64,000 nucleotides of DNA from DASRDR01 sp963812945 [NCBI: uncultured Candidatus Rokubacteria bacterium]. GTDB taxonomy: Bacteria; Methylomirabilota; Methylomirabilia; Rokubacteriales. Positions 18,010-60,189 of this stretch are shown here, piece after piece; the stretch's first letter is position 1; each line of letters opens with the position of its first letter. The notes under the pieces were generated by a model. It ran no database searches. It was not told the DNA's origin and saw only the letters and a program-made list of their open reading frames with translations. The translations under genes were made by a program, and so were the position numbers. Location of the stretch: positions 248,001-312,000 of the forward strand of contig CAWEXD010000004.1 of assembly GCA_963812945.1 (NCBI GenBank), read 5' to 3'.

Positions 18010-18035
18010 TGCGGTTCCTCCATTCCGGCAGGATG

Positions 18036-18461
18036 TCAAGACTTCGAGCATGGCTCCTCCACGACGTTGAGCAATTCGACGCGTGTGGCCATCTCGCGCG
18101 CGCGCGCCAGCATCTCCTGCGCGCGCCGGGAGTCCGAGAACTCGGCGCACAGGCGCACCTCGCCCTCGAGACCGATGCGGGTTTGCCGGAGCGTCGCGAC
18201 TGCGCCGTCCCGACGGGCGGCCTCGAGCATCTCCCACAGGCTCTGCCACGCGCTCCGGGTCGCGTCCGGGACGCCCCGGCCTCGCGAGAGCGCGTAGACG
18301 GCAAAGCTCGGCGGCGTGGCTCGAGGGGCCTGCGCCACGTCCCCGGGCCGAGGCGTCGCGGCGGCACATCCCGCCGCGGCCGTCCACGCGCCGAGGAGGC
18401 ACGCGACCGCAACCGACCAGCATTCCGGGGTCGCCACGGCGTACCTCACGCGTTCACACAT
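18036..18461 (-). CDS. Small putative lipoprotein, function unknown
   Basis: 141 residues from ATG 18461 (an upstream start at 18491 is possible). The N-terminus VACLLGAWTAAAGCAAAT looks like a lipoprotein signal with the lipidated Cys near residue 32. The mature part contains a helix-rich region (RAQEMLARAREMATRVELL) and no recognised domain. It precedes the metzincin lipoprotein by 26 bp on the same strand, so the two probably form an operon; a chaperone or inhibitor role would be speculation. Confidence 0.6.
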   Translation of the reverse strand: MCERVRYAVATPECWSVAVACLLGAWTAAAGCAAATPRPGDVAQAPRATPPSFAVYALSRGRGVPDATRSAWQSLWEMLEAARRDGAVATLRQTRIGLEGEVRLCAEFSDSRRAQEMLARAREMATRVELLNVVEEPCSKS

Positions 18462-27763: not shown

Positions 27764-27828
27764 TAGACGCGTCCGAGCGCGGCCGGGCTTGTTGACCAGC
27801 CGTTCGGCGCGTCGTGGTGTCACCCCAT

Positions 27829-27844
27829 GGCAGCCATGGCTGCC
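27829..27844. promoter_or_regulatory. 16-bp perfect palindrome upstream of an ABC binding-protein gene
   Basis: GGCAGCCATGGCTGCC ends 25 bp before the ATG at 27870, with extra GCTGCC half-sites to the right. It could be an operator or an mRNA hairpin in the leader of the importer operon. Confidence 0.4.
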
Positions 27845-27869
27845 AAAGCTGCCACAGCTGGAGGTGGGT

Positions 27870-29597
27870 ATGAGAACGTGGCTCTGCAGAGCGTCGGGGA
27901 TCGTCGGTCTCGTGGTCGTCGCTGCCCTCGTCCTCGCCCTCGTCTACGGGCCCGGGCCGACACTGACTGCCATCCCGCTGATCGCGGCGAGTCCGGCGGC
28001 GGCGCAAACACCCACGGCCAAGCCGGGCGAACCCTTCTTCCTGAAGGCGATCGACCACGACAAGGCCAAGCGCGGCGGCACGCTCAGGCTGGCGGCGCAC
28101 GGCCCGCCCTCGATGTTCGACATCTACGCGTCCGGGACAATCGCCAACGTCGGCGCGCAGGCGCCCATGTACGACCTGCTCGTTCGACAGGATCCGAGGG
28201 ACCCGAAGCTGCCCATCATCCCGAGCTTGGCGACCAGCTGGACGATCTCTCCCGATGGGATGACCTACACCTTCAAGCTGCGCCAGGGCGTCAAGTTCCA
28301 CGACGGGACGGACTTCGGCGCCGAGGACGTGAAGGCGAGCTTCGACCGGATCGTCTTCCCGCCGCCGAACCTGATCAGCTTGCGGCTCCTGCCCATCAAG
28401 GAGATCGTGGTCCGCGACCGCCACACCGTCGAGATGAAGCTCTCCGAGCCCCGGGACTCGTACACCTTCCTGGCCTCGCTCGCCGGGGGCTGGAACGTCA
28501 TCACCAGCAAGGAGGCCCTCGACAAGCACAAGGGCGACCTGAAGCAGGTGGACAACTTCCCGGGCACCGGACCCTTCATGCACAAGACCCGCACCACCGA
28601 GTCATGGGAGCAGGTCAGGAATCCCAACTACTGGAACCCCAACGTGCCGTACGTGGACCGCATCGTCCATGTCTGGCTGAAGGCCTGGACGCCCGAGCTG
28701 GCCTCGGCGCTGCTGGGCGGGCAGGTCGACTGGGCGATGTGGCTCGACCCGAGCGCGTACCAGAAGGTGAAGGCCAGCGCCAACATGTCCGGCCTCATCT
28801 GGCTGGCGCCGAACCTCAACTCTTGGATCGGCTTCAACAACGACCGCGAGCCGTTCAACGACAACCGCGTGCGGCGCGCCCTGCACCTGGTGCTCGACCA
28901 GGACGCCCTGAGCAAGATCACGCAGCAGTTCGACCCGACCATGCAGCTGGGTGACTACCTTCCGCCCCCGTACGGCAAGAGCTACGAGGAGCTGATGAAG
29001 GAGTACCCCTACGCGCCGGCCACGCGGGAGAAGGCCATCGCCGACGCCAAGAAGCTCATGGCCGACGCGGGACACCCGAACGGCATTGCCAAGACCTTCA
29101 ACTTCGTGGTCAGGGAATCCCCCCAGAACCGGCAGCTGGCGGCCTACGCCCAGGCCGAGTGGGAGCGGCTCCTCGGGGTGAAGACTCGCCTCGAGGTCGT
29201 GCAGGTCTCGGCGATGGTGGACCGGCAGGTCGCTGGCACGTTCGACATCATCTCCCACGCCGCGTGTCTCGGAGGGGCCGACCTGAGCGCCACCATCAGG
29301 GCGTGCTACAGCATCAACAAGACCACGGGCAAGAAGTCCGACAGCAACTTCACCAACTTCAAGAGCGCCGAGTTCGACAAGCTGCTCGACCAGTTCTCCG
29401 TCGAGGTGGACGCCCAGAAGAAGGTCCAGCTCGGGCGGCAGCTGAACCAGATCCTCAACAGGGAGATGCCCAACACCGGCGTGACCCACGGCGGCCGCGC
29501 GTACGGCTGGCACAACCACGTGAAGGGGCTCCCCAAGGTCGGCGGCAACTCCGACTACAACACCTACCAGTGGGACTTCGTCTGGCTTGAGAAGTAG
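27870..29597 (+). CDS. ABC transporter substrate-binding protein, oligopeptide (SBP_bac_5) type
   Basis: 575-residue periplasmic receptor of a peptide/nickel/opine-type importer. ATG 27870 follows GGAGGTG. A Sec-type signal (residues 1-48) ends SPAAAQ. Family features: KRGGTLRLAAHG at the mature N-terminus, SWTISPDGMTYTFKLRQGVK then FHDGTDFGAEDVKASFDRI, and the KSYEELMKEYPYAPATREKA region. Typical length. First gene of an SBP-permease-permease set; a GC-rich hairpin follows its stop. Ligand unknown; a DppA/OppA-like role in uptake of peptides or other mid-sized organics is expected. It lies 107 bp after the IS481-type element. Confidence 0.93.
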   Translation: MRTWLCRASGIVGLVVVAALVLALVYGPGPTLTAIPLIAASPAAAQTPTAKPGEPFFLKAIDHDKAKRGGTLRLAAHGPPSMFDIYASGTIANVGAQAPMYDLLVRQDPRDPKLPIIPSLATSWTISPDGMTYTFKLRQGVKFHDGTDFGAEDVKASFDRIVFPPPNLISLRLLPIKEIVVRDRHTVEMKLSEPRDSYTFLASLAGGWNVITSKEALDKHKGDLKQVDNFPGTGPFMHKTRTTESWEQVRNPNYWNPNVPYVDRIVHVWLKAWTPELASALLGGQVDWAMWLDPSAYQKVKASANMSGLIWLAPNLNSWIGFNNDREPFNDNRVRRALHLVLDQDALSKITQQFDPTMQLGDYLPPPYGKSYEELMKEYPYAPATREKAIADAKKLMADAGHPNGIAKTFNFVVRESPQNRQLAAYAQAEWERLLGVKTRLEVVQVSAMVDRQVAGTFDIISHAACLGGADLSATIRACYSINKTTGKKSDSNFTNFKSAEFDKLLDQFSVEVDAQKKVQLGRQLNQILNREMPNTGVTHGGRAYGWHNHVKGLPKVGGNSDYNTYQWDFVWLEK

Positions 29598-29604
29598 TCG
29601 CAGG

Positions 29605-29632
29605 CGGGGGTGGCGCGCGCGCGTCACCCCCG
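29605..29632 (+). terminator. Intercistronic hairpin after the binding-protein gene
   Basis: Perfect 8-bp arms CGGGGGTG / CACCCCCG with a 12-nt alternating GC loop, 8 bp after the stop, followed only by TT. As in many importer operons it probably protects the binding-protein mRNA 3' end and lowers read-through into the permease genes. Confidence 0.55.
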
Positions 29633-29661
29633 TTCGTCACCCCGCGTAGGGAGTTGCCAGG

Positions 29662-30618
29662 GTGCGGACGTACCTGGCCAGACGCCTCTTGCTCGTCGTG
29701 CCGACCCTGCTCGGCGTCTCCATGGTCATCTTCGTGGCCATGCGCCTGCTTCCGGGCGACCCGCTCGTGGCCATCTTCGGCCTCGAGGGGGCGAGACGGA
29801 TGACGTCCGAGCAACGGGCGAACCTGGAGCAGGCCCTGGGACTGCGCGACCCGTACGTGGTCCAGTACGGCAAGTGGCTGCGGGACATCGCCACCGGCGA
29901 ATTCGGCAAGTCGCTGCTGCGGGGCGACAGCGTCACCCAGTTCGTGGTGCGCCGCGGCCCTATCACGTTGGAGATTGCCGTCCTTGCGGCGTTGATCTCC
30001 TGGATCGTTGGCTTTCCCGTCGGGATCCTCAGCGCCATCAGGCCCAATTCCTGGATGGATCACGCCAGCCGGATGTTCTCGATTCTCTTCGTCGCCATCC
30101 CTGGGTTCTGGCTGGGCCTCGTGATCGTCCTTGCGCTGATACTCTGGTTCGACTACAAGGCGCCGATCCTGCCGGTGTACCCGTGGGAAAGCCTCTCGAA
30201 GAACTTTCAGATGGTCGCCGGCCCCGCCGCGGTCCTGGGCCTGGGATTCGCGGGATTCGTCGCGCGGATCGTCCGCTCCTCTCTCGTCGAGGTGATACAG
30301 GAAGACTATGTCCGGACGGCCCGAGCCAAGGGCCTGAACGAGCAGTTGGTCGTTGTCCGCCACGCCCTGCGCAACGCGATTCTCCCCGTGGTGACGTGGA
30401 GCAGTCTCTTCCTGGGCGTCGCCCTGGGCGGCTCGGTCGCCGTCGAGAAGGCCTTCGGGGTCCCTGGGCTGGGCTTGACCATGATCGACGCCATCCTGGA
30501 TCGAGACCTGCCCGTGGTCCAGAACCTCGTGCTCCTCTACGCGGTCGTGTTCGTGGTGGTGAACCTGATCACGGACATGAGCTACGCCTGGCTGGACCCG
30601 AGAATACGGTACGACTAG
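29662..30618 (+). CDS. ABC transporter permease, DppB type
   Basis: 318-residue inner-membrane permease starting at GTG 29662. The N-terminus RTYLARRLLLVVPTLLGVSM is diagnostic of the DppB/OppB family, with FGKSLLRGDSVTQFV in the periplasmic loop and the EAA-type loop YVRTARAKGLNEQLVVVRHA then LRNAILPV (about residues 215-245). The C-terminus MSYAWLDPRIRYD is also typical. Six membrane segments. Partners: the DppC-like gene 28 bp downstream. Confidence 0.95.
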   Translation: MRTYLARRLLLVVPTLLGVSMVIFVAMRLLPGDPLVAIFGLEGARRMTSEQRANLEQALGLRDPYVVQYGKWLRDIATGEFGKSLLRGDSVTQFVVRRGPITLEIAVLAALISWIVGFPVGILSAIRPNSWMDHASRMFSILFVAIPGFWLGLVIVLALILWFDYKAPILPVYPWESLSKNFQMVAGPAAVLGLGFAGFVARIVRSSLVEVIQEDYVRTARAKGLNEQLVVVRHALRNAILPVVTWSSLFLGVALGGSVAVEKAFGVPGLGLTMIDAILDRDLPVVQNLVLLYAVVFVVVNLITDMSYAWLDPRIRYD

Positions 30619-30646
30619 GGCCGGTCCGCCGGGCAGACGACAGCCA

Positions 30647-31543
30647 ATGGCCGTCCAGGCAGGTCTCGACGGGAGCCTCGTGAGGAAGCCCACGAAGGGC
30701 GGCCTTGCGCGGCTGAGGACGTTTGCCCGGCGCTACCCTCTTCCCGCCGCGTGCGGAGTCGTGGCGGTGGTCATCACCCTGATGGGCGCCTTCGCCCCGC
30801 TGGTGTCGCCCGACGACCCGCTCAGGCCCAATGCCTTGGCGCGGGCCCAGGGACCCAGCTGGCAGCACTGGTTCGGGACGGATTTCATAGGCCGGGACGT
30901 GCTCAGCCGGATCGTGCACGGCGCCAAGTGGTCCCTGTTCGTCGCCATCACGTCCGTGCTGCTGGGCACCACATTGGGAGCGGTGTGGGCGGTGGCCAGC
31001 GCTTTCTTCGGCGGCATGTTCGACCTGTTGGGTCAGCGTCTGGTGGAGGTGCTGTTGTCCTTTCCGCCGATACTCCTGGCGCTGTTGCTCGCCGCCGCCC
31101 TCGGAGCCAGCACATGGACGGTCATCCTGTCCATCGCCGCCACTCGGGTGGGCTATGGCACCCGGATCATCCGGTCCCAGGCCTTGGCCATAGAGGCGAT
31201 GCAATACGTCGAGGCCGCCCGGAGCCTGGGGTCTTCCTCCTGGAGAATCATCTTCCTTCACATCGCGCCCCAGTGCATCGGGCCGTACCTGGTTCTCATC
31301 ACGACGTCCCTCGGCATCGCCATCGTGCTGGAGGCGACGCTGGGCTTCCTGGGCGCCGGGATTCCGCCTCCCACGCCGACCTGGGGCAACATGCTGGGCG
31401 ACGCGGCCTCCATGCTGATTCCCCAGTGGCACCTGGTGGTCTTCCCGGGGCTCGCCATCGTCGTCGCGGTGCTGGCCTTCAACCAGTTCGGGGACGGCCT
31501 GCGCGACGCGTTCGACCCTCGGCTCCGCGGCACCAACATCTAG
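30647..31543 (+). CDS. ABC transporter permease, DppC type
   Basis: 298-residue permease. After a basic N-terminal tail and the first membrane helix comes HWFGTDFIGRDVLSRIVHG, the family hallmark, then the EAA-type loop YVEAARSLGSSSWRIIFLHI (about residues 185-205) and LEATLGFLGAGIPPPTPTWG near the C-terminus. The C-terminal GLRDAFDPRLRG is diagnostic. No DppD/DppF ATPase gene follows; the next gene encodes an unrelated soluble protein, so ATPases must be supplied from elsewhere. Confidence 0.95.
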   Translation: MAVQAGLDGSLVRKPTKGGLARLRTFARRYPLPAACGVVAVVITLMGAFAPLVSPDDPLRPNALARAQGPSWQHWFGTDFIGRDVLSRIVHGAKWSLFVAITSVLLGTTLGAVWAVASAFFGGMFDLLGQRLVEVLLSFPPILLALLLAAALGASTWTVILSIAATRVGYGTRIIRSQALAIEAMQYVEAARSLGSSSWRIIFLHIAPQCIGPYLVLITTSLGIAIVLEATLGFLGAGIPPPTPTWGNMLGDAASMLIPQWHLVVFPGLAIVVAVLAFNQFGDGLRDAFDPRLRGTNI

Positions 31544-31643
31544 GACGTTTCTGCCACGGACACGCTCTGGCTTCGAGGCATGATGGTGAAGAGCACGGCT
31601 GCTCTCGCTGACGCTCCTCACGATCACGCTGGGAGGTCTGGCT

Positions 31644-32192
31644 ATGACTCACGCGCGAGCGGAAGATCGGGCAGGGTTCCATCGTGTCCTGGCGGCGCCG
31701 GGTCGCTCGCCCGACATTCCCGAATCGATGGACGTGTACGGGTGGCTCGTCGGGAGCTGGGACCTGGCAGTCCTTCGCTACCGGGGCATCGACGTCACCG
31801 CACGCCGCCTGGCGGGCGAGGTCCATTTCGGCTGGGTGCTCGAGGGCCGAGCCATTCAGGACGTCTGGATCATGCCTCGGCGGTCTGACCGCACCGGGAA
31901 CGAAGAGAGCACGCAGAACATGTATGGCACGACGTTTCGTCTCTGGGACCCGGTGATCCAGGCCTGGCGCATCAGCTGGAAGAATCCCGCCGGGGGACAC
32001 TACGAGGAGCAGGTCGGCCGCCGGATGGGCCCGGACATCGTCCAGCTCGGTGCTCGCCCGAACGGCACGCCGACGCGGTGGATCTTTACCGAGATCATGG
32101 CAGATTCCTTCCGGTGGCTCGGCGAGGCGCTGGAGCCGGATGGCAGGACCTGGAAGCTCGAGGGGGAATTCCGGGCCACGCGCGTGCGCTGA
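31644..32192 (+). CDS. Conserved hypothetical protein (DUF1579-like beta-barrel)
   Basis: 182 residues from ATG 31644 with GGGAGGT upstream. Motifs GWLVGSWDLAVLRYRG near residue 32, HFGWVLEGRAIQDVWIMP and FRLWDPVIQAWRISWKNPAG resemble small calycin/lipocalin-like proteins of the DUF1579/THAP4-like sort, in which GxW starts a beta barrel. No signal peptide. Function unknown; it may follow the importer genes in one transcript (100-bp gap). Confidence 0.65.
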   Translation: MTHARAEDRAGFHRVLAAPGRSPDIPESMDVYGWLVGSWDLAVLRYRGIDVTARRLAGEVHFGWVLEGRAIQDVWIMPRRSDRTGNEESTQNMYGTTFRLWDPVIQAWRISWKNPAGGHYEEQVGRRMGPDIVQLGARPNGTPTRWIFTEIMADSFRWLGEALEPDGRTWKLEGEFRATRVR

Positions 32193-32199
32193 GACGAAA

Positions 32200-32216
32200 G
32201 GCCAGACGCGCTGGCC
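32200..32216. terminator. Hairpin between convergent genes
   Basis: GGCCAG-ACGCG-CTGGCC, perfect 6-bp arms with a 5-nt loop, 8 bp after the upstream stop and between two convergent genes. No T run. Confidence 0.45.
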
Positions 32217-32248
32217 ATCGGGTCGATCGATCGGGGCTGCCGGGGCGG

Positions 32249-33136
32249 CTACGTTACTTCTGGCTGCTCCTCGTAGACCTCGAAGTAGCGGTTGGCCAGC
32301 GTGCGCTGGTTCTCGTAGATGGAGCCCTCGAAGGGTGCGACCGGCAGCGGGATCCGCACCGGGACCGGGGTCACCCGCGGCTCCATGGTTGGCTCGCCGG
32401 TCACGATGTTGGCGTTGAACTTCTCCCAGTCCGGGATGCCCAGGAGCGGGAAGGCGTCGACCGCCGTGTACTGGAACAGCAGGAGCCGGCGCGGACGGTC
32501 GGAGGTGTTCAGCGCCGAGCCGTGAATCATCCGCACGTGGTGGATGGTCATGCAGCCCGCCCGGCCGGTGAGCATGACGGCCTTCGAGAAGTCGATGCCC
32601 GAGGCAGCCGGATCGATCGCGCCGCAGAACACGCCGCCGCTGTGGTGATCGGCGATCGGCCCGGTGTGGCTCCCCGGAATCACCATGAGCGGCCCGTTGT
32701 CGGGCCCGCAATCGTCGAGGTAGAGCCCGATGGCCAGCAGGTCGTCGTTGGTGTGGGGATAGAAGGCCCAGTCCTGGTGCCACTCGACCGCCGCGCCGTA
32801 GCCGGCCGACTTCATGTTGAGCTTGCCCGTCTGGTAGCGGAGGCCGGAGGGGCCGATCAGCGGCGTCAGGATGTCCGCGATCTTCCTGCTGAACGCGATG
32901 TCCCGGAAGGCCGAATGGACGTTGTGCGGCTCCTTGATCCGGCGGACGCGCGGCGCCTGGGCGGTGTGGGTCGGCTCGAGGTCGTAGATGTGATTGTGCT
33001 CCGTGACGGCATGGGACGCCGCGACCAGCTCGTCGGTCACCTGGCGGAGGGTGGCCAGCTCCCGCGCGCTCAGGGCGTTCTCGACTAGAACGTAGCCGTC
33101 CCGCCGGTAGGACTGCACCTGTTCCCGAGTGAGCAT
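32249..33136 (-). CDS. Phytanoyl-CoA dioxygenase (PhyH) family Fe(II)/2-oxoglutarate enzyme
   Basis: 295 residues from ATG 33136, chosen because GGAGGG lies at good spacing; starts at 33166 and 33202 are also in frame. The N-terminus LTREQVQSYRRDGYVLVENA is typical. The facial triad reads His120 and Asp122 (VEWHQDWAFYPHTN) and His205 (HVRMIHGSALNTS), with the 2-oxoglutarate-binding Arg in SDRPRRLLLFQY. Cofactor sites are complete, so it should hydroxylate a small molecule. Substrate unknown; nothing adjacent fixes a pathway. Cytoplasmic. Confidence 0.92.
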   Translation of the reverse strand: MLTREQVQSYRRDGYVLVENALSARELATLRQVTDELVAASHAVTEHNHIYDLEPTHTAQAPRVRRIKEPHNVHSAFRDIAFSRKIADILTPLIGPSGLRYQTGKLNMKSAGYGAAVEWHQDWAFYPHTNDDLLAIGLYLDDCGPDNGPLMVIPGSHTGPIADHHSGGVFCGAIDPAASGIDFSKAVMLTGRAGCMTIHHVRMIHGSALNTSDRPRRLLLFQYTAVDAFPLLGIPDWEKFNANIVTGEPTMEPRVTPVPVRIPLPVAPFEGSIYENQRTLANRYFEVYEEQPEVT

Positions 33137-33372
33137 GCCGTGGACCCTCCGCGTGCCGGCGGCCATCGCCGTGATTTCCGGTAACTCCCGGGCCCGCCCC
33201 ATCGCGCCCGCGAGGCACGAAGGGCGTGAGTTCCCCGTCCGCCCCTAGTGTACTCCGCGCCGGCGGCCGGTTCGAAGCCCGCGGTCCGGCCTTCTCGACC
33301 CCTCTCCGGCCGCTGCGCGTGAGCGCGGCGCTGCGCGGGTGGCGATTCCGAGCGCTTCTGCGCTTCTGCCGC

Positions 33373-36300
33373 CTATCGCCGCTTGGTGGCTCCGCTGAGG
33401 AGACTCACGAGCTCGTTGTACCGGCGGCGGGCAACCTCGACCGCCTCCAGGTCCTTCATCTCCAGCGTGTCGGCGGTGGCGGACCGTTCGCCTGGATTGG
33501 TCTCGGCGGCTCGCGAACTCGCGTACATGAGCGCGCTCCAGCCGCTCCGATCGGTGAGCGTCGGGTCGGCGCCCGCTCTCAGCAACCGTCGCGCGATCTC
33601 CGGGTGCGCCTTCCTGGCGGCGTACGTGAGGGCCGTCCAGCCGTCCCGCGTCCGGGCGTCGACGCTGGCACCGCGATCCAAGAGGCGCTGGACGAGGGCC
33701 ACGTCGCCGTCACGGGCCGCCAGCATGAGAGCCGTGACACCCTGGTCATCCCGGGCGTTGACGTTCGCACCCCGGGCGAGCAGAAGCTCGGCCACCGTGC
33801 TGTGTCCATGGATCATCGCCGTCATCAGCACGGTCCGCCCCTGGAGGTCTCGAGCGCTGGGCGATGTGCCGCTATCCAGCAGACTGCGAACCGCCAACAA
33901 ATCCCCGGACTCGGCGGCATCCAGCAGCACGTACTCCCGCAGTGAGTCAGGACGACGGGCGGCGGGCGACGTTGCCGTGACGACGGCCCGAGACGCTCTT
34001 GGCTCCTGCGCCGTCGCGAGGGCCCCGGGCTCCGGGTCGCGCGGCCTCGTCTCGGGCGCCGGCTCACTGGAGACGGCCCGAGACGCTCTTGGCTCCTGCG
34101 CCGTCGCGAGGGCCCCGGGCTCCGGGTCGCGCGGCCTCGTCTCGGGCGCCGGCTCACTGGAGACGGCCCGAGACGCTCTTGGCTCCTGCGCCGTCGCGAG
34201 GGCCCCGGGCTCCGGGTCGCGCGGCCTCGTCTCGGGGGACGGCCGTCCAGGTGCTGGCTGCGCGGGCCTTGCGCGAGCCGGGGCCGGGGCGGCGGGAGGG
34301 CGCGGACGGGCCGCGATCTGCGGGGACGCCGCAACCCGCGGGTCAGGCGGCGGCTGGTCTGGCCGCGGCGCGAAGAGCAGCACGGTGACGAGGCCGAGGG
34401 CCACGGCCCCGGCACGCGCTATCCATACGCGAGACCGTCCGCGCCAGGAGTGCCCGCGGCGCCATGCGGCCAGGCTCCGTGCGGATCGGGGCGCGCGCCG
34501 TTCCGGCCACGCCAGGCGTGCCCCGAAGGACCGGGTGCGAAGCTCGCCGACCACGCTCTGGAGGAGCGCGGCGGCGCGAGCCCGGATGGCAGGGAGCTGC
34601 TCGGCGACCCCCCGGCCAAACGCGGCGCCCCGATCCTGCATGGCGCGGAACTGACCGGCCACCCCGTGACCGAACGCAGTGGCGCGATCCCAGGTGGCGC
34701 GCAGCTGGCTGGCGACGCCACGGCCAAACGCGGTGGCGCGATCCCGCGCGGCAGGGAGCTGCTTCGCGAGCCCGCGGCCAAACGCGGCGCCCCGATCCCG
34801 CGTGGCGCGGAGCTCGTCGCCGACCCGCCGCCCGAACGCAGCGGCCGGATCCCGGGTAGCGTGGAGCTGACCGGCGACCTCCACGCCCAACGCGGCAACG
34901 CGATCCCCCGCGGTGCGCAGCTGACCGGCGACCCCTCGGCCAAACGCGGTGGCCCGATCCTGGGTGGCACGCAGATGACCCTCGACGCCCCGCCCGAACG
35001 CGGCGCCCCGATCCCCTGCGGCACGCAGCTGACCGGCCACCCCGTGGCCCAACGCGGCCACCCCATCCCGCGCAGCATGGAGCTGGCCGGCCACGCCGCC
35101 GCCGAACGCGGTGACCCCATCCCGCGCGGCACGCAGCTGACCGGCCACCCCGTGGCCCAACGCGGCCACCCCATCCCGCGCAGCATGGAGCTGGCCGGCC
35201 ACGCCGCCGCCGAACGCGGTGACCCCATCCCGCGCGGCACGCAGCTGACCGGCCACCCCGTGGCCCAACGCGGCCACCCCATCCCGCGCAGCATGGAGCT
35301 GGCCGGCCACGCCGCCGCCGAACGCGGTGACCCCATCCCGCGCGGCACGCAGCTGACCGGCCACCCCGTGGCCCAACGCGGCCACCCCATCCCGCGCAGC
35401 GTGGAGCTGGCCGGCCACGCCGCCGCCGAACGCGGTGACCCCATCCCGCGCGGCACGCAGCTGACCGGCCACCCCGTGGCCCAACGCGGCCACCCCATCC
35501 CGCGCAGCATGGAGCGGACCAGCCACCCCGTGGCCAGGCGCGGCGGCACGGTGACGGGCGGCCCGCGCGATCTCCCGCTCGAGGCCGCGGAGGCCAGCCA
35601 CGCGCGTGTACCCTTGCACGATCTGGCGGAGGGTCTCGGGCTCGACGCTTACCTCGCCCGGGGCGAGGCCGTGGGCGGCGAGCTGCTTCGGGATCAAGTA
35701 TCGGCGCGCGATCTCGATCTTCTCCTCATCCGTGTACCCGGAGAGCGTCAGCACTTCCATCCGGTCTCGCAGCAGCCCCGGGATGGTGTCGAGGGTGCTG
35801 GCGGTCGCGATGAACAGCACCTGCGAGAGGTCGAACGCCACCCCCAGGTAGTTGTCCACGAAGGTGTGATTCTGGGCGGGGTCCAGCACCTCGAGCAGCG
35901 CCGTCACTGGATCTCCCAGCCGCTCGGCTCCCATCTTGTCGATCTCGTCCAGCATGAAGACGGGGTTCCGGGTCTCCGCCCGCCGCAGCCCCTGGATGAT
36001 CCGGCCGGGAAGGGCCCCGGTGTACGTCCGCCGGTGGCCCCGGATCTCCGCCTCGTCCCGCACCCCGCCGAGCGACATCCGCGCGAACCGCCGGCCGAGC
36101 GCCCGGGCGATGCTATGCCCGAGGCTGGTCTTGCCCACCCCGGGAGGCCCCACGAAGCACAGGATCGGCCGGCTTCTCGCCACGAGGTACTGGAGGATCC
36201 GCTCCTTGACCTTCTCCAGGCCGAAGTGGTCCTCGTCCAGCGCCTCGCGGACCCGTCGGAGGTCGATGGCGCCGCCGGCGAGCTTCGTCCAGGGCAGGCT

Positions 36301-37119
36301 CGCCATCCACTCGAGGTACGTGACGATCATGTCGCGCTCGGGCGACATCGGCGGCAGGGTTGCAAACCGGGTCAGTTCGCGCTCCGCCTCGCGCCGGGCC
36401 TCCTCCGGAAGGCCGGCGGCCTCGATTCGACGGCGATGCTCGTTGAGGTGGTCCTTCGCGATCCTCTTGCCAAGCTCGCGCGTGGCCAACTCACGCCGCA
36501 GCAGGTCGACCAGGCGGCGTAGCTTGGCCGTCACTCCGGCCGTCTCGAGAAGCTCCTGCTGCCCGGCCACGCCGAGCGGCAGGACCGAGGCGACGAAGTA
36601 GACCAGGTGGCGGGGGTCCGTGACGCTCTCCACGGTGCCCGCCAGCTCGGCCGGCAGGTCCGGGGACGCCTCCGCGAGCCGGCGGGAGAGGTCCAGGACC
36701 GCGCGTCGAAGCGCGTCGAACTCCCCGGACTGGACGCTCGGCTCCGAAGCCGCCTCGACCCGAGCCACGAGGTACGGCTCCGTGCTGACGAGGTCCAGGA
36801 CTCGCACGCGCTCGAGGCCCTGGACCATGAGCCGCACGCTGCCGTCGGGGGCTCGAGCGACCTGGTGGATCACGCCCACCGTGCCCATCCGGTGGAGGTC
36901 GTCTCGCTTGGCCGGTTCCGCCTTCGCATCCCGCTGGGCCACCAGGACGAGCAACTGGTTGCCGCGCATCGCGTCGTCGACCAGCCGGACCGAGCGGGAC
37001 TGTTCGACGGCGAGCGGCAGGGTTGTCAACGGGAACACGACCCTGTCCCGGAGGGGCAGGACCGGGAGCGCGTCAGGGACGGTGAAGTCGCCGGGGCCCG
37101 GACCAGCCTGGACCGTCAT
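33373..37119 (-). CDS. Lon-type N-domain + AAA+ module fused to 18-residue repeats, membrane segment and ankyrin repeats; protease domain absent
   Basis: One uninterrupted frame of 1248 residues. Residues 15-210 are a LON substrate-binding domain (ALPVLPLRDRVVFPLTTLPL). Residues about 270-517 are a Lon AAA+ module: Walker A GPPGVGKT (Lys330), Walker B FMLDEIDK (Asp391, Glu392), arginine finger in LLRDRMEVL and sensor 2 in GLRGLEREI. Where Lon proteases continue into the Ser-Lys peptidase domain, this protein switches to nineteen 18-residue repeats (about 521-862; consensus RDGVAALGHGVAGQLRAA), a basic stretch, one membrane helix (about 899-917), three 30-residue Pro/Ala-rich repeats (about 960-1046) and about five ankyrin repeats (1054-1210). 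The usual sensor-1 Asn is Ser441. ATP hydrolysis should be possible, proteolysis not. Positive charges before the helix predict ankyrin repeats outside the cytoplasm. Confidence 0.9.
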   Translation of the reverse strand: MTVQAGPGPGDFTVPDALPVLPLRDRVVFPLTTLPLAVEQSRSVRLVDDAMRGNQLLVLVAQRDAKAEPAKRDDLHRMGTVGVIHQVARAPDGSVRLMVQGLERVRVLDLVSTEPYLVARVEAASEPSVQSGEFDALRRAVLDLSRRLAEASPDLPAELAGTVESVTDPRHLVYFVASVLPLGVAGQQELLETAGVTAKLRRLVDLLRRELATRELGKRIAKDHLNEHRRRIEAAGLPEEARREAERELTRFATLPPMSPERDMIVTYLEWMASLPWTKLAGGAIDLRRVREALDEDHFGLEKVKERILQYLVARSRPILCFVGPPGVGKTSLGHSIARALGRRFARMSLGGVRDEAEIRGHRRTYTGALPGRIIQGLRRAETRNPVFMLDEIDKMGAERLGDPVTALLEVLDPAQNHTFVDNYLGVAFDLSQVLFIATASTLDTIPGLLRDRMEVLTLSGYTDEEKIEIARRYLIPKQLAAHGLAPGEVSVEPETLRQIVQGYTRVAGLRGLEREIARAARHRAAAPGHGVAGPLHAARDGVAALGHGVAGQLRAARDGVTAFGGGVAGQLHAARDGVAALGHGVAGQLRAARDGVTAFGGGVAGQLHAARDGVAALGHGVAGQLRAARDGVTAFGGGVAGQLHAARDGVAALGHGVAGQLRAARDGVTAFGGGVAGQLHAARDGVAALGHGVAGQLRAAGDRGAAFGRGVEGHLRATQDRATAFGRGVAGQLRTAGDRVAALGVEVAGQLHATRDPAAAFGRRVGDELRATRDRGAAFGRGLAKQLPAARDRATAFGRGVASQLRATWDRATAFGHGVAGQFRAMQDRGAAFGRGVAEQLPAIRARAAALLQSVVGELRTRSFGARLAWPERRAPRSARSLAAWRRGHSWRGRSRVWIARAGAVALGLVTVLLFAPRPDQPPPDPRVAASPQIAARPRPPAAPAPARARPAQPAPGRPSPETRPRDPEPGALATAQEPRASRAVSSEPAPETRPRDPEPGALATAQEPRASRAVSSEPAPETRPRDPEPGALATAQEPRASRAVVTATSPAARRPDSLREYVLLDAAESGDLLAVRSLLDSGTSPSARDLQGRTVLMTAMIHGHSTVAELLLARGANVNARDDQGVTALMLAARDGDVALVQRLLDRGASVDARTRDGWTALTYAARKAHPEIARRLLRAGADPTLTDRSGWSALMYASSRAAETNPGERSATADTLEMKDLEAVEVARRRYNELVSLLSGATKRR
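33983..34240 (-). repeat. Three 90-bp direct repeats inside the Lon-ankyrin gene
   Basis: Units start at 33983, 34073 and 34163 and are essentially identical; the third is cut short at about 34237. Each encodes 30 residues of the type DPEPGALATAQEPRASRAVS, placed between the membrane helix and the ankyrin repeats. Confidence 0.85.
35041..35518 (-). repeat. 108-bp tandem repeats inside the Lon-ankyrin gene
   Basis: Units start at 35041, 35149, 35257, 35365 and 35473 (the last partial), nearly identical apart from a single change near 35400. Each 108-bp unit encodes two 18-residue repeats. More diverged 54-bp repeats continue to about 34535. The identity of the units points to recent expansion by unequal exchange or slippage. 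Confidence 0.9.
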
Positions 37120-37199
37120 CAGCGAGCCGTCCCGCGCTCCGGCAGGGCGATGCGCAGCAGGCTTCGGTCGTAGCGAACCTCGAACCGGCGGTACGGCAT
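37119..37199 (-). CDS. 26-residue upstream reading frame coupled to the Lon-ankyrin gene
   Basis: ATG 37199 opens a 26-codon frame (MPYRRFEVRYDRSLLRIALP...) whose TGA overlaps the ATG of the Lon-ankyrin gene in a TGATG arrangement. The Lon-ankyrin start has no strong ribosome-binding site of its own, so coupled translation from this frame would make sense. It has no clear Shine-Dalgarno sequence either (GGAAC only) and no recognised family; it may be a leader peptide or chance. Confidence 0.35.
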   Translation of the reverse strand: MPYRRFEVRYDRSLLRIALPERGTAR

Positions 37200-37399
37200 G
37201 TTCCGACTTGGGAGCCCATTGTGCGCGCGAGGACCAGGCGGGTCAACCACGGACGCCGGAGGGGCGAGCCGAACTCGTCACCGATCCCGGCGGGCGAAAG
37301 GTCACCCACCGGGAGGCTCGGAGCCGGCCGCACCCGAGGCTCCAACCACGAAAAGGACCACGCTCCCGTCCTTCCGCCTTAGCCTCGCCGCATGACGGC

Positions 37400-38488
37400 C
37401 TAGTCTCGCGGCGGAGCGAAGGCCAGGAGCCGCCGCGGCGTCTCCACCAGCATCGTCTGGATGTCCGCTTCCTTGAACCCGCGCGCGCGCAGCCGGGGCA
37501 CGATGTTCTGCAGGATGTGGCCATAGCCGCACCCGCCGTACCGGACGAGGTGCGACTTCTGAGCCGTATCCTGCGCCAGGACGAGCTGCCGGCCGTGGCC
37601 CTCCGCGATCAGCCAGGCGAGCAGCTTCAGGCGCACGCCGTCGTTGATCATGTCGATGTCGGGCGAGTGCTTGTAGTACGAGTGCTCGCGGCCGAACAGG
37701 TCGAACTCGAGGACGCACCCCGTCTCCGCGAGCTTCCGCATGTCCGAGCGCTCGAAGAGCGTCCGCTCGATGTGCCCGATGATCGTCCGCGACAGGTCCG
37801 TGTCGACGTCCCGGAGGACGCCCACGATCTCCGCCGGGGCGCCCTCGTTCCGTCCGGGATGGATGAGGAGCGGCGCCCCTGTCCGTCGCTGGGCGCGCCC
37901 CGACGCCCGGAGCACCTTGCGCTCGTTCGGCGTCAAGGGCCAGGAGCACCCCACCTCGCCGATCACGCCCGCCCGCACCCCGGTATGGCCGATGCCCTCG
38001 AGAACGTCGCGGACGATCGCGTCCGCGATGGCGTCCTCCGACCGCGCGTCCATGTCGGGGGGATGCGCCGCGCCGACGTAGTGGGAAGCGCCCATGATCA
38101 CGTGGACGCCCGTGGCCCGGGCGATCTGCCGGAGGCCCTCCGGATCGCGCCCGATCCCGATGCTGGTCGCCTCGACGATCGTGTCGCCGCCGGCGCGCTT
38201 GTAGAGGAGAGTCTCGGCGATCGCCGTCTCGACGTCGAGCAGCCGGCTGTTGTCGAGGCACCGGTGGCCGCCGAAGTTGATGCTCCCGAGGATCTCCATG
38301 GTCACCGGGGCGTAGAACGTGGCGCGCCGGCTCGCCTCGACGGGCGGCGGCTGGAGGCCGGACAGGTCGACCAGGAGGTGCTCGTGCGTCGAGGTGACTC
38401 CGAGGCGGTCGGCCGGGATCGGCCCCAGGACCGTCTGGGCCTTCCCGGTGAGGTCCGTGTTCCGAGGCTCGCGCTGGCCCGCCATCAT
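37400..38488 (-). CDS. Phosphotriesterase/lactonase-family amidohydrolase
   Basis: 362 residues; ATG 38488 (or 38485) follows GGAAGGGGAGGG. A TIM-barrel metal-dependent hydrolase: the first two metal ligands are in TSTHEHLLVD (about residue 33), followed by VEATSIGIGRDPEGLRQIA, the bridging-ligand region GEVGCSWPLTPNERK, His in LLIHPGR and GHIERT, and the final Asp in VLAQDT. PTE-family members hydrolyse lactones, phosphotriesters or related esters; an extended insertion between strands 1 and 2 is present. It follows the DppC-like gene by 74 bp on the same strand and may act on the imported compound. Confidence 0.88.
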   Translation of the reverse strand: MMAGQREPRNTDLTGKAQTVLGPIPADRLGVTSTHEHLLVDLSGLQPPPVEASRRATFYAPVTMEILGSINFGGHRCLDNSRLLDVETAIAETLLYKRAGGDTIVEATSIGIGRDPEGLRQIARATGVHVIMGASHYVGAAHPPDMDARSEDAIADAIVRDVLEGIGHTGVRAGVIGEVGCSWPLTPNERKVLRASGRAQRRTGAPLLIHPGRNEGAPAEIVGVLRDVDTDLSRTIIGHIERTLFERSDMRKLAETGCVLEFDLFGREHSYYKHSPDIDMINDGVRLKLLAWLIAEGHGRQLVLAQDTAQKSHLVRYGGCGYGHILQNIVPRLRARGFKEADIQTMLVETPRRLLAFAPPRD

Positions 38489-38562
38489 TCCCTCCCCTTC
38501 CGTGTCTCTACGTGAGTGGCCGGCGCCGATCGCGGGAAACGCGCCGCGATCCCGCATCCCTG

Positions 38563-39396
38563 TCAATCGCTCGGTCCGCTCCGAAGAGGGCGCCCCGCGA
38601 GCAGTCGCCGGAGCGCGCCGGTGGATACCCGGTCGACCCCGCCGCGATTCGATCGCGGCCGTCGCCGCGCCAGGACAAGCTGGAGCCCGTCCGCCACCGT
38701 CTGCGAGGCCAGGGCGATCAGGAAGATCGCGCTCCCGGCGGCCACGGCGAGCCACGGCGCCTCGAGCACGAACGAATAGCCCTCCCGCAGCATGCGTCCC
38801 CACGACAGGGCGGGCGGCGGCACACCCAAGCCCAGGAAGCTCAGGCTCGCCTCGGTGAGGATCGCCGTGCCGACGCCGAACGACGACTGCACGAGGAGCA
38901 CGTCCCCGAGATTCGGCAGGACGTGCCGCCACATGATGCGGGATCGCGCGGCGCCGAGGGCCCGGGCCGCGGTCACGAACTCGCGCGCGCCGAGCGCGAG
39001 CGCCTCCCCGCGCACGAGGATCGCGAAGGTCGGGATGAAGGTGACCGCCAGCGCGCCGATGACGTTCCACAGACTGGTCCCGAGAAACGCGGTGATCGTG
39101 AGGGCCAGGACGAGCGACGGAAAGACGAGCAAGGCGTCCATGGCGCGCATGAGGACGCCAGCGACGCGGCCGGGCGCCAGGCCCGCCACGAGGCCGATGG
39201 CGGTCCCGACGGCCATCCCGACGGCCACCGACACGAGGCCCACGATCATCGAGATGCGCGCGCCCCCGATGATCTGGCTGAACACGTCCCGGCCGAGAGG
39301 GTCCGTCCCCAAGAGGTGCTCGCCGCCGGGCGCCGCGAGCACCAGGCGCGGGTTGTACCGCAAGGGGTCGTGGGGGGCCAGCTGCCGCCCGAACAC
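38563..39396 (-). CDS. ABC transporter permease, DppC type (start uncertain)
   Basis: About 277 residues from GTG 39396. Family marks: LLGTDPLGRDVFSQIIGGAR, the EAA loop EFVTAARALGAARSRIMWRH, LTEASLSFLGLGVPPPALSW and GLQLVLARR. However, the frame upstream of the GTG encodes GWGALVIALALLCA, clearly the first membrane helix, and no ATG, GTG or TTG precedes it before an in-frame stop. Either an unusual codon such as ATC near 39461 is used, or there is a base change or sequencing slip near the junction with the preceding permease. The preceding gene ends at 39455. Confidence 0.88.
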   Translation of the reverse strand: MFGRQLAPHDPLRYNPRLVLAAPGGEHLLGTDPLGRDVFSQIIGGARISMIVGLVSVAVGMAVGTAIGLVAGLAPGRVAGVLMRAMDALLVFPSLVLALTITAFLGTSLWNVIGALAVTFIPTFAILVRGEALALGAREFVTAARALGAARSRIMWRHVLPNLGDVLLVQSSFGVGTAILTEASLSFLGLGVPPPALSWGRMLREGYSFVLEAPWLAVAAGSAIFLIALASQTVADGLQLVLARRRPRSNRGGVDRVSTGALRRLLAGRPLRSGPSD

Positions 39397-39454
39397 GGCG
39401 CAGAGAAGCGCGAGCGCGATGACGAGCGCGCCCCAGCCGACCTGCGCGCCCGGG

Positions 39455-40399
39455 CTAGTGATGGCGCACCCGCGGATCGACGACCGCGTAGGCGATCTCG
39501 ATCAGGAAGTTCGTCGCGAAGACACCGACCGTCACGATGACGATGATGCCCTGCACGACGGGAAAGTCCCGGCCCAGGATGGAGTCGACCAGGAGGATCC
39601 CGACGCCGGGCAGGGCGAAGATCGTCTCCGTCACCACCGCGCCGCCGAAGAGGCGCGACATGCTCACGGCGAGGATGCTCAGCACCGGCAGCACGGAGTT
39701 CCGCAGGGCGTGCACCCAGAGCACGCGGCGCTCCTGGAGGCCCTTGGCGCGCGCCGTCCGCACGTAGTCGGTCTCGAGCGCCTCGAGCATCTTCGTGCGG
39801 ACCAGTCGGGTCAGGTTGCAGACGTACGCGAAGCTGAGGGTGATGGTCGGGAGCAGCATGGCGCGGGCGTGCCCGAGCGGATCGTCCAGGAAGGAGACGC
39901 TGCCGGACGACGGCAGCACCCGCAGGTGGAGCGCGAACAAGAGGATCAGGAGAATGGCGACCCAGAAGTTCGGCATCGCCGTCCCGAACGCCGTCAGCAA
40001 GGAGATGCCGACGTCCGTCGGCGTCCCCGGCCGGACGGCGGCCAGCGTCCCCAGGGCCAGGGCGACCAGCACCGCGACCAGGAGCGAGAGCAGGGCGAGC
40101 TCCAGGCTGAGCGGGAGCCGGGCGGCGATCGCGCCGAGCACGGGCTGGCCCGTCCGGAAGGACCGCCCCCAGTCGCCCTGGGCCAGGCGGCCCAGCCAGT
40201 CCGCGTACTGGACGTGGACCTGCCGCTCCAGCCCCAGGTCCCGCCGAAGGCGCGCCACCGTGTCGGGGTCCACGTCCCGGCCCAGCATGATCACCACGGG
40301 ATCGCCGAACACCGCCTGCATCAGGACGAAGATGAGGGCGGTCAGGAACAGGATGGAGAAGGCCATCGCCGCGACGCGGCGCGCGATCAAGACCCACAC
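39455..40399 (-). CDS. ABC transporter permease, DppB type
   Basis: 314-residue permease. The N-terminus VLIARRVAAMAFSILFLTAL, the FGDPVVIMLGRDVDPDTVAR loop, WGRSFRTGQPVLGAI, the EAA loop YVRTARAKGLQERRVLWVHA and the C-terminus IAYAVVDPRVRHH all fit OppB/DppB. Six membrane segments. It follows the binding-protein gene by 81 bp and precedes the DppC-like gene. Together they make a second oligopeptide-type importer in the window without ATPase genes. Confidence 0.95.
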   Translation of the reverse strand: MWVLIARRVAAMAFSILFLTALIFVLMQAVFGDPVVIMLGRDVDPDTVARLRRDLGLERQVHVQYADWLGRLAQGDWGRSFRTGQPVLGAIAARLPLSLELALLSLLVAVLVALALGTLAAVRPGTPTDVGISLLTAFGTAMPNFWVAILLILLFALHLRVLPSSGSVSFLDDPLGHARAMLLPTITLSFAYVCNLTRLVRTKMLEALETDYVRTARAKGLQERRVLWVHALRNSVLPVLSILAVSMSRLFGGAVVTETIFALPGVGILLVDSILGRDFPVVQGIIVIVTVGVFATNFLIEIAYAVVDPRVRHH

Positions 40400-40480
40400 G
40401 GATGACCTCGGCGATCGGCCGGGCGACCCGGCGACCCGATGGGGACGCTGGCCCTCGGGTCGTCCGGCGCCGTCAGGGCT

Positions 40481-42055
40481 CTACTTCTCGAGCCAGAGGT
40501 CGCGGAAGCGCGGGATGAGGTCGGGGACCCATCCCCAGTTCTGCACCTTTCGGTTCATCACGGCGAACTCGGCCGTGTAGTTCAGGAACACGTACGGCAC
40601 GTCGTCGGTGATCGTCCGCTCCGCGGTGTAGTAGAGGCCCCGCCGGCGCTCCACGTCGTAGATCGATGCCGCCTGATCCAGGAGCTCGTCGACCTTCGGA
40701 TTGTTGTACCCGGTCGTGTTCGCGTGCCCCTTGCTGTGGAAGAGGATGTACAGGAGGCCGTTGGGATCCGCCCGCTGGGCCCAGCGCGTGTGCGTCCAGT
40801 TCGTCTTCCGCGCCACGATCCGCGAATAGGCGTCCGCCGGGTTCACCGGCTCGATGTCCAGCCCGACGTTGATCTTCTGCAGCTGGGCCTGCAGGAGCTC
40901 CGTCTGGCGGATCCACTGCGGCGTGTTCTCGACCACGAACTTCGCCCGGAACCCGTTGGGGTGGCCGGCCTCGGCGAGCTTCTTCTTGGCCATCTCGAGA
41001 TCGTGACCGAACCCCCGGAAGCTCGGGTCCGACCACCAGAGGCCCGGGCTGACCGGCCCCCGGGCCGGCTCGCCGAAGCCGCGGAGCAGCACGTCCCGGA
41101 TCTCGTTCCGGTCGATCGCCAGCGCGATCGCCTGCCGGAGCGCCTTGTTGTTGAACGGCGGCTCGTCCACGCGCCACTGGAGCGCGGTCCAGCGCGCGGC
41201 GGGCTTCATCTCGGACACCTTGAGGCTCGCCTCGTTGCGCACGCTCGGGATGTCCTTCGCGTCGACGTCGGTGGCGATGTCCACCTCGCCCGTCCGCACC
41301 ATGGTGAGACGCACGGTCGGGTCCGGGACGACCCGGTAAACCACGCGGTCCACGTGGGGCTTCCCCTTCTCCCAGTAGTCCGGGAACCGCTCGAGCGTCA
41401 CCTGGGAGTCGCGCACCCACTCGACGAACTTGAAGGGACCGGTCCCCACCGGGCGCTGGCCAAACTCCGGCCCGAGCTGCTTCACCGCCGCCGGCGAGAC
41501 GATGAACCCCGGGCGCTCGGCCAGCGCCGCGAGCAACGGGGCGAACGGCCTCTTCAGCTCGAACGCCACCGTGTGGGGGTCGACGACGGTCACCCCCGCG
41601 ATCGCCGGCTCGAGGGGGGCGCGCTGGGGCGACTTCGTCTGCGGATCGAGGATCCGCTCGATGTTCCACTTCACCGCGTCGGCGTTGAAGTCGGTGCCGT
41701 CGTGGAACTTGACCCCCCGCTGGAGCTGGAACGTGACCCGCTTGCCGTCCTGGGACACGGTCCACGCCCGGGCCAGCTCGGGCACGACGTTGAAGCCCTG
41801 GTCGAGCCCGACGAGGGTGTTGAACACGAGGTAGCACACGTAGCGCTCGGAGAATTCCACCGAGAGGTGGGGGTCGAGGGTCTTCGCGGCTGGGATCCAG
41901 CCGATGCGCAGCGTGCCACCCCGCACCGGAGCCTGCGCCTCTGACGGGGTCATCGGCCGGATCATCGGGGCGGCCACCATCAGGAGCGTGGCCAGCAGCA
42001 AGAGACCGAGTCGGCTCGCGCTCGCCTTCCGAGACGATCGTCCGGTTCGCTTCAT
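40481..42055 (-). CDS. ABC transporter substrate-binding protein, oligopeptide (SBP_bac_5) type
   Basis: 524-residue periplasmic receptor; ATG 42055 follows GGAGGGGAGGGG. A signal peptide covers residues 1-43 (SRLGLLLLATLLMVAAPMI..., ending SEAQA). Mature features: PVRGGTLRIGWIPAAKTLDP, ARAWTVSQDGKRVTFQLQRG then VKFHDGTDFNADAVKWNIER, and the RQAIALAIDRNEI segment. Normal length. It is the receptor for the DppB/DppC pair directly downstream. Neighbouring LLM, CMD and phosphotriesterase-family genes suggest that the ligand is an organic compound degraded inside the cell rather than a peptide. Confidence 0.94.
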   Translation of the reverse strand: MKRTGRSSRKASASRLGLLLLATLLMVAAPMIRPMTPSEAQAPVRGGTLRIGWIPAAKTLDPHLSVEFSERYVCYLVFNTLVGLDQGFNVVPELARAWTVSQDGKRVTFQLQRGVKFHDGTDFNADAVKWNIERILDPQTKSPQRAPLEPAIAGVTVVDPHTVAFELKRPFAPLLAALAERPGFIVSPAAVKQLGPEFGQRPVGTGPFKFVEWVRDSQVTLERFPDYWEKGKPHVDRVVYRVVPDPTVRLTMVRTGEVDIATDVDAKDIPSVRNEASLKVSEMKPAARWTALQWRVDEPPFNNKALRQAIALAIDRNEIRDVLLRGFGEPARGPVSPGLWWSDPSFRGFGHDLEMAKKKLAEAGHPNGFRAKFVVENTPQWIRQTELLQAQLQKINVGLDIEPVNPADAYSRIVARKTNWTHTRWAQRADPNGLLYILFHSKGHANTTGYNNPKVDELLDQAASIYDVERRRGLYYTAERTITDDVPYVFLNYTAEFAVMNRKVQNWGWVPDLIPRFRDLWLEK

Positions 42056-42178
42056 CTCAGTCCCCTCCCCTCCGCGCGCCCGGTGGTTCGGAACGGCACC
42101 GCATCGGTCCCTGGGAATGGCGGGTCGAGTGTCAGCCATCGAGGGAGCCTTGGCAAGGCCGCGCGGGCCGCGTCATTG

Positions 42179-58773: not shown

Positions 58774-60189
<1,416 letters not shown>

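Follow-up and report, generated by a model that had tools for sequence, protein, structure and literature searches.

A Lon-derived protein without a peptidase domain and with a predicted membrane/ankyrin tail

What becomes of a Lon protease when its peptidase domain is exchanged for a different tail? This question is raised by a gene in a 64,000-nucleotide (nt) stretch of contig CAWEXD010000004.1 (here called the window), where it occupies positions 33373–37119 of the minus strand. An earlier sequence-only reading had described a single frame in which a normal Lon N-domain and AAA+ module are followed, at the point where the Ser-Lys peptidase domain should start, by repeats, a membrane helix and ankyrin repeats. 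The product had been proposed to be a membrane-tethered unfoldase or remodelling machine. The frame was confirmed: it comprises 1248 codons and a stop, starts with ATG, contains no N and is open throughout. The description of the encoded protein as a protease-less Lon fused in one frame to repeats, a membrane helix and ankyrin repeats is supported by the domain analysis. The Lon part, however, appears altered rather than normal, and its sequence does not support the reading of the AAA+ module as a processive unfoldase. A membrane-tethered, Lon-derived capture or scaffold protein is preferred instead, with a likelihood that falls only just short of even.

Domain layout and the absent peptidase domain

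All features of the gene lie on the minus strand. The Lon part consists of the N-terminal substrate-binding domain (residues 18–209, 36493–37068; Pfam LON_substr_bdg, 7e-50), the AAA+ alpha/beta domain (residues 320–458, 35746–36162; Pfam AAA, 5e-23) and a shortened lid (residues 482–525, 35545–35676), which matches positions 2–45 of the 57 in the Pfam Lon_lid model. It is followed by nineteen repeats of 18 residues (54 nt each) with the pattern of an in-phase amphipathic helix (residues 523–864, 34528–35553) and by a membrane helix predicted from hydrophobicity and fold (residues 898–916, 34372–34428). Further on, repeat analysis detected a Pro-rich linker of 2.9 repeats of 90 nt (33982–34243), and both Pfam and the single-sequence fold revealed several consecutive ankyrin repeats (residues 1065–1190, 33550–33927). 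Repeat, hydrophobicity and Pfam analyses confirmed every element of the tail that had been described before.

The absence of the peptidase domain was borne out as well. A domain search of the protein returned LON, AAA and ankyrin families and no Lon_C, which is missing from the 20 Pfam families listed for the gene product (up to E = 1), also in the repeat region. A hidden Markov model (HMM) of the Lon C-domain, trained on 78 of 80 related Lon loci (two with a short C-terminus were excluded), was compared with the six frames of the whole window. The only significant match lies at the lid and covers the first 27 positions of the model, while the second match is non-significant (E 0.95, negative score). 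There is thus no recognisable peptidase domain in the gene or nearby out of frame. With the same HMM, the peptidase domain was found in the same frame as Lon in 169 of the 169 fetched Lon loci checked, a count in which two genes appear twice (L147/L189 and L148/L190) and which was obtained with a model trained on 78 loci of the best-80 set. The NCBIfam lon model scored 513.5 bits on the window protein, below its cut-off of 608.05.

The nineteen repeat units share one register, and their length of 18 residues corresponds to five turns of an alpha-helix. At 100 degrees the array as a whole has a hydrophobic moment of 0.27, whereas 1000 shuffles reached 0.15 at most; the value per unit is 0.31 (shuffles: mean 0.23, maximum 0.32). 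Variation among the nine diverged copies is greatest at the third codon position (0.41 vs 0.24 and 0.27), and the median nonsynonymous (dN) and synonymous (dS) distances are 0.29 and 0.60 (36 pairs). It is therefore probable that the repeat frame is translated and constrained to some degree. Copies 2–10 form nearly identical 108-nt pairs, and the copies closest to the membrane helix are diverged. As the near-identical pairs (35014–35499) adjoin the diverged 54-nt copies, the array may have expanded recently toward the Lon end, so that the length of the rod may differ between strains.

Residues 898–916 form the single hydrophobic segment of the protein; the next-best window, at residue 425 (mean 1.5), is an ordinary core segment inside the AAA+ domain. 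The segment is preceded by 12 Lys or Arg in about 40 residues and followed by six in about 40. Because of this bias, the positive-inside rule would place the ankyrin domain outside the cytoplasm, in agreement with the earlier prediction. The Pro-rich stretch is coded by about three 90-nt units. In the single-sequence fold the tail appears as a long helix, a membrane helix, a disordered Pro-rich linker and an ankyrin stack, and at a mean predicted local distance difference test (pLDDT) score of 59 this model is a hint only. The ankyrin part had no match in viral contigs.

The Lon part and its probable operon front

The best 80 of at least 576 Lon relatives from genome contigs are 41–49% identical to the window protein in their best segments. 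In genomes of other phyla ordinary Lons were found, which are 52–64% identical over the AAA+ part among the matches listed (one search covered 193 genomes). With AhcY as a phylum marker, where two of the searches covered 78 and 74 of these 193 genomes, two different phyla were indicated. When DNA was compared with 80 of the 193, genome G140 ranked first. In tetranucleotide usage its locus L139 comes closest to the window (r 0.839, against 0.838 between two parts of the window itself). A second G140 locus reached 0.759, which is below unrelated loci such as L038 (0.773). This pointer was confirmed only by the Lon search of the phylum's genomes. In the phylum with similar DNA, Lon matches were obtained in 94 of 95 genomes, with a distinct group of close Lons among the matches listed. 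From these, 14 close orthologues (L177–L190) were fetched, and further ones may exist. Their phylum is presumably Methylomirabilota/Rokubacteria, judging from gene content and GC content.

All 14 orthologues are full-length Lons with a Ser-Lys peptidase domain. The Lon part of the window protein falls within this family, with 66–76% identity over 503 columns. From residue 316/317 on, its local identity to the orthologue is 73–81% in 12 of the 14 comparisons; in the remaining two a longer stretch aligns, at 71% and 68%. In the tree it stands beside L178 (support 0.87) on a branch of 0.26, compared to 0.07 for L178. It differs at 30 of the 234 columns that are invariant in the 14 orthologues (12.8%), whereas each orthologue, when compared with the other 13 and the window protein, differs at 0–5.1% of the invariant columns. 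The ratio of nonsynonymous to synonymous changes per site (pN/pS), with changes polarised on five orthologues, is 0.38 in the Lon part versus 0.03–0.23 in nine controls. By these measures selection on the Lon part is relaxed, with the frame intact. Three deletions all preserve the frames.

The AAA+ motifs named in the sequence-only reading are present: Walker A, Walker B, the arginine-finger positions (Arg residues before pore loop 1) and sensor 2 (Arg 511, in the lid) are retained, as is the pore-loop Tyr 366. The module is nevertheless not normal, since the gate, the pore loops and sensor 1 are altered. In pore loop 1, the Tyr-Ile that grips the substrate in Lon (excerpts of PMC8913295) has become Tyr-Thr (I367T). 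In pore loop 2, a Trp has been replaced by Arg 400 (W400R). Manual counting along the alignment with Meiothermus Lon places it at Trp 431, a residue of pore loop 2 in that enzyme (PMC10643698, in the part consulted). In sensor 1, Asn has been replaced by Ser 441 (N441S). The Ile, the Trp and the Asn are each invariant in the 14 aligned orthologues. Further substitutions are R401L in the alpha/beta domain and E507V in the lid.

In addition, two stretches of the Lon part have been shortened. At residues 223/224 (36450–36451), 32–33 residues of the long helix that are found in the 14 aligned orthologues are missing, comprising the coiled coil and the entry-gate Tyr of the collar. In Thermus Lon the Tyr doublet of the substrate collar and the coiled coil both belong to this helix (PMC8835725, excerpts), and in Meiothermus Lon a single change of the entry gate, Y224S, abolishes casein binding (excerpts of PMC10643698). 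At residues 316/317 (36171–36172), the loop before the first AAA+ strand, the length of which varies among orthologues, is shorter than in all 14 of them and in E. coli Lon. With both the peptidase domain and the gate absent, the protein is not a Lon protease.

In the N-domain of Meiothermus Lon, hydrophobic patch I is formed by L10, V14, I15, P22, V23 and M85 (PMC8087443, in excerpts). After transfer of the patch residues by hand via the alignment to this protein, the window protein was found to carry a hydrophobic residue at six of the six positions; patch II, with Ala, Ala, Pro and Val, is less pronounced. The predicted fold of residues 1–566 has a mean pLDDT of 80.5, with values of only 53–55 around residues 351–370, just before and at pore loop 1, and the 50 PDB matches listed for it are all Lon.

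In all 14 orthologous loci the gene directly upstream of lon belongs to one family, which is Hsp20, a small heat-shock chaperone, by Pfam in the three loci tested. In the window a 26-codon Hsp20 remnant was found at 37119–37199 (minus strand), in which the start MPYRR (vs MRYRR) runs in frame into the final ~21 codons. About 107–111 codons of hsp20 seem to have been lost without a shift of frame. The C-terminus of the remnant matches the end of Hsp20 (61.9% over 21 amino acids; E 1.5e-5 for the 900-nt upstream region and 0.001 for the whole window), and the alignment covers 21 of the 22 residues encoded immediately upstream of lon. The assignment of MPYRR as the Hsp20 start draws on five codons and the position of the promoter-like site, and the C-terminal match is firmer. 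The start pattern was found in all 14 orthologous loci in a second scan, L180 and L186 having been missed in the first. The TGA of the remnant overlaps the lon ATG (TGATG), an arrangement shared by 7 of the 12 orthologous loci listed.

A promoter-like site, TTGACC-17-CACAAT, lies 18 nt before the remnant (37218–37246, minus strand). The pattern, which was defined after inspection of the loci, has a single occurrence on the two strands of the window, and none of 20,000 mononucleotide shuffles of the 200 nt upstream contained it. A like pattern is located 20–24 nt before hsp20 in 7 of the 14 orthologous loci; six are clear and one (L177) is weaker, 24 of 200 shuffles being equally good. Taken together, the promoter-like site, the Hsp20 remnant and the stop/start overlap argue for a remodelled native locus. 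The window thus seems to hold the front end of an hsp20-lon operon, and the gene derives from the Lon of such an operon, with Hsp20 apparently cut to a 26-codon leader.

The remnant and the promoter-like site (37119–37246, minus strand) also resemble a leader open reading frame that is kept for translational coupling. Besides hsp20 and lon, no flanking family (of the families listed, in stretches of 6.5–16 kb) recurs in more than 3 of the 14 loci. The hsp20-lon pair behaves as if it moved as a unit. It had been considered that the gene was moved from its ancestral site, as no flanks are shared. This idea was dropped, since the flanks vary among the 14 orthologous loci and the operon front is present.

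Possible readings: capture protein, unfoldase, leader or chimera

The sequence itself shows a Lon that has lost its entry-gate helix, the loop and, at the lid, the whole peptidase domain, in place of which it carries the helical-repeat/membrane/ankyrin tail. In the preferred scenario, the inner membrane would hold the product, its Lon part facing the cytoplasm and its ankyrin domain lying on the far side. The retained N-domain patch may capture misfolded or hydrophobic segments of proteins, and the nucleotide-binding AAA+ part may serve assembly or switching. Processive threading would not be its task, because the gate, the pore-loop grip and sensor 1 are degraded. Expression as a membrane-tethered capture or scaffold protein would be driven by the old operon promoter. 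A more far-reaching version, in which the stress operon has become a trans-membrane proteostasis device, is quite improbable. In this device a periplasmic ankyrin domain, an amphipathic rod and a protease-less Lon would capture damaged proteins at the membrane, maybe docking or inhibiting the canonical Lon.

The ATP-driven, membrane-tethered unfoldase or remodeller of the earlier reading, with a Lon ring that threads and an ankyrin domain that senses or binds a partner, was not upheld and is considered unlikely. Its entry gate is gone, and three invariant residues have been exchanged: the Ile of pore loop 1 for Thr, the Trp of pore loop 2 for Arg and the Asn of sensor 1 for Ser. The retained Walker motifs, Tyr 366, arginine positions and sensor 2 speak for it, as does a frame under some constraint, and the case of SKD3 (PMC10090083, excerpts) shows that disaggregase activity can reside in an ankyrin and AAA+ protein that lacks a peptidase. 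The protein could also be a modulator of canonical Lon, an odd protease-less subunit that inhibits the host Lon or docks it at the membrane. Such a role would be in line with monomeric Meiothermus Lon mutants that bind a Lon pentamer and inhibit the wild type (PMC10643698, in excerpts) and with the local identity of 73–81% to 12 of the 14 orthologues. It is nonetheless very unlikely, as the peptidase contacts are absent and the second Lon of the organism is hypothetical. A rather unlikely reading is that the Lon part is a decaying leader and only the membrane/ankyrin tail, driven by the old operon promoter, is useful. The relaxed selection, deletions and lost motifs would be expected from it, and the promoter-like site and coupling are retained. 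On the other hand, the Lon part contains no stop or frameshift, and its N-domain patch and Walker motifs have been kept. Over those 167 of the 503 columns in which five orthologues share the same codon, the ratio of nonsynonymous to synonymous changes (n/s) is 1.34. This is lower than in all 500 neutral simulations (mean 5.4, lowest 1.85), the spectrum of which was drawn from the observed changes themselves. In these 167 codons the simulations produced 1.5 stops on average, and none in 96 of the 500 runs. A wholly neutral history of the Lon part is disfavoured by the ratio, and a frame without a stop in all its 1248 codons argues against prolonged neutrality.

An assembly chimera, in which a lon fragment and an unrelated repeat/ankyrin gene are joined, is likewise unlikely. 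The end of Lon and the start of the repeats meet at a short shared RAAR-coding stretch beside the tandem array, where assemblies fail, and such a junction is compatible with true illegitimate recombination or misassembly alike. A chimera would also be consistent with the lack of a relative with the same order, the missing tail homologues and the lower GC content of the repeats and linker. However, the Lon part bears the changes expected after the loss of proteolysis, the 5' side resembles the ancestral operon front, and an ordinary lon would be a likelier partner in a misassembly. Several points count against the capture or scaffold protein favoured here. The Lon/repeat junction is taken from the assembly. 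The GC content at codon position 3 is 0.86–0.96 for residues 1–500 versus 0.76–0.84 in the repeats and linker, a step that is expected for a different origin or for different coding demands and does not decide between recombination and misassembly. The Lon-tail domain order is a single instance: none of the relatives found shares it, and the 14 orthologues fetched are ordinary Lons. No homologue of the tail was found at E 1e-3 in 92 fetched loci (1.11 Mb, ~0.65 Mb of them from a single genome of 5.4 Mb, and with loci that partly overlap), and none of residues 674–960 among plasmids. L178, the sister in the tree, and six other loci lack the promoter pattern. As 96 of the 500 neutral runs are stop-free, little weight attaches to the open Lon frame by itself; the neutral spectrum depends on the very changes that it is compared with; and by our arithmetic a history of constraint followed by neutrality over about 30% of the branch also fits the selection ratio.

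Neighbouring features and comparison with known systems

Filing of the gene under a known family was tried and given up, as NCBIfam, Pfam and PADLOC yield only Lon-type or general AAA and ankyrin matches. A defence system was likewise rejected: the match of the gene to PADLOC PDC-M72A (5.7e-29) is confined to its ankyrin part, and its matches to some AAA families are weak. For three other window proteins (of ~45 in the window) there was no PADLOC match. A transposon-borne fusion was discarded too, since 30500–40500 shows only imperfect flanking inverted repeats, the longest being 71 nt at 70%, with arms that lie in or beside two transporter gene sets. These oligopeptide/nickel-type ABC transporter sets (27789–31543, plus strand, and 39455–42139, minus strand) flank the gene on opposite strands. 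Elsewhere in the window, a frame of 578 amino acids at 16687–18423 (minus strand) contains a Matrixin/astacin-like metallopeptidase domain (Peptidase_M10, 2e-9). An S-adenosylhomocysteine (SAH) riboswitch (RF01057; 58669–58747, plus strand) lies directly before an adenosylhomocysteinase gene (58774–60189). This riboswitch also lies near adenosylhomocysteinase in L093 and in L112, whose genomes belong to two further groups, and not in L113.

If real, the gene would represent a Lon that has lost its protease and threading parts, kept its damage-recognition domain and operon expression signals, and moved to the membrane. It would thereby illustrate a route from a degradation machine to a binding or regulatory protein, and provide a natural test that separates the Lon parts required for recognition from those required for unfolding. 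Among the papers listed for the open-access literature, there was no such protein under Lon with ankyrin or under Lon with a missing protease domain, which leaves the earlier statement that no such system had been described uncontradicted.

LonB and FtsH are AAA+ proteins tied to the inner membrane that keep their peptidase domain, and their membrane segments lie inside or N-terminal to the AAA+ region. The window protein shares with them the predicted location of an AAA+ module at the inner membrane. In contrast to both, it has no peptidase domain, and its best hydrophobic window (898–916) lies C-terminal to the AAA+ domain rather than within it, where LonB has its membrane segments. LonA is matched in the N-domain, the AAA+ alpha/beta domain and most of the lid, as well as in the hsp20-lon operon front of the 14 orthologues. 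The window protein differs from LonA in the absence of the Ser-Lys peptidase domain and the entry-gate helix, in the altered pore loops and sensor 1, and in the added membrane/ankyrin tail. Like the mitochondrial disaggregase SKD3/CLPB, as portrayed in excerpts of PMC10090083, it combines ankyrin repeats with an AAA+ module of the HCLR clade and no peptidase. In SKD3, however, the ankyrin repeats stand on the N-terminal side, and its mature form is set free in the intermembrane space (same excerpts), whereas those of the window protein are C-terminal, beyond the predicted membrane helix, and its AAA+ module is Lon-type instead of Hsp100-type. By analogy, the protein may work most like a peptidase-less ankyrin AAA+ protein such as SKD3/CLPB, yet it is not a member of that family, because its AAA+ module is Lon-type and its domain order differs.

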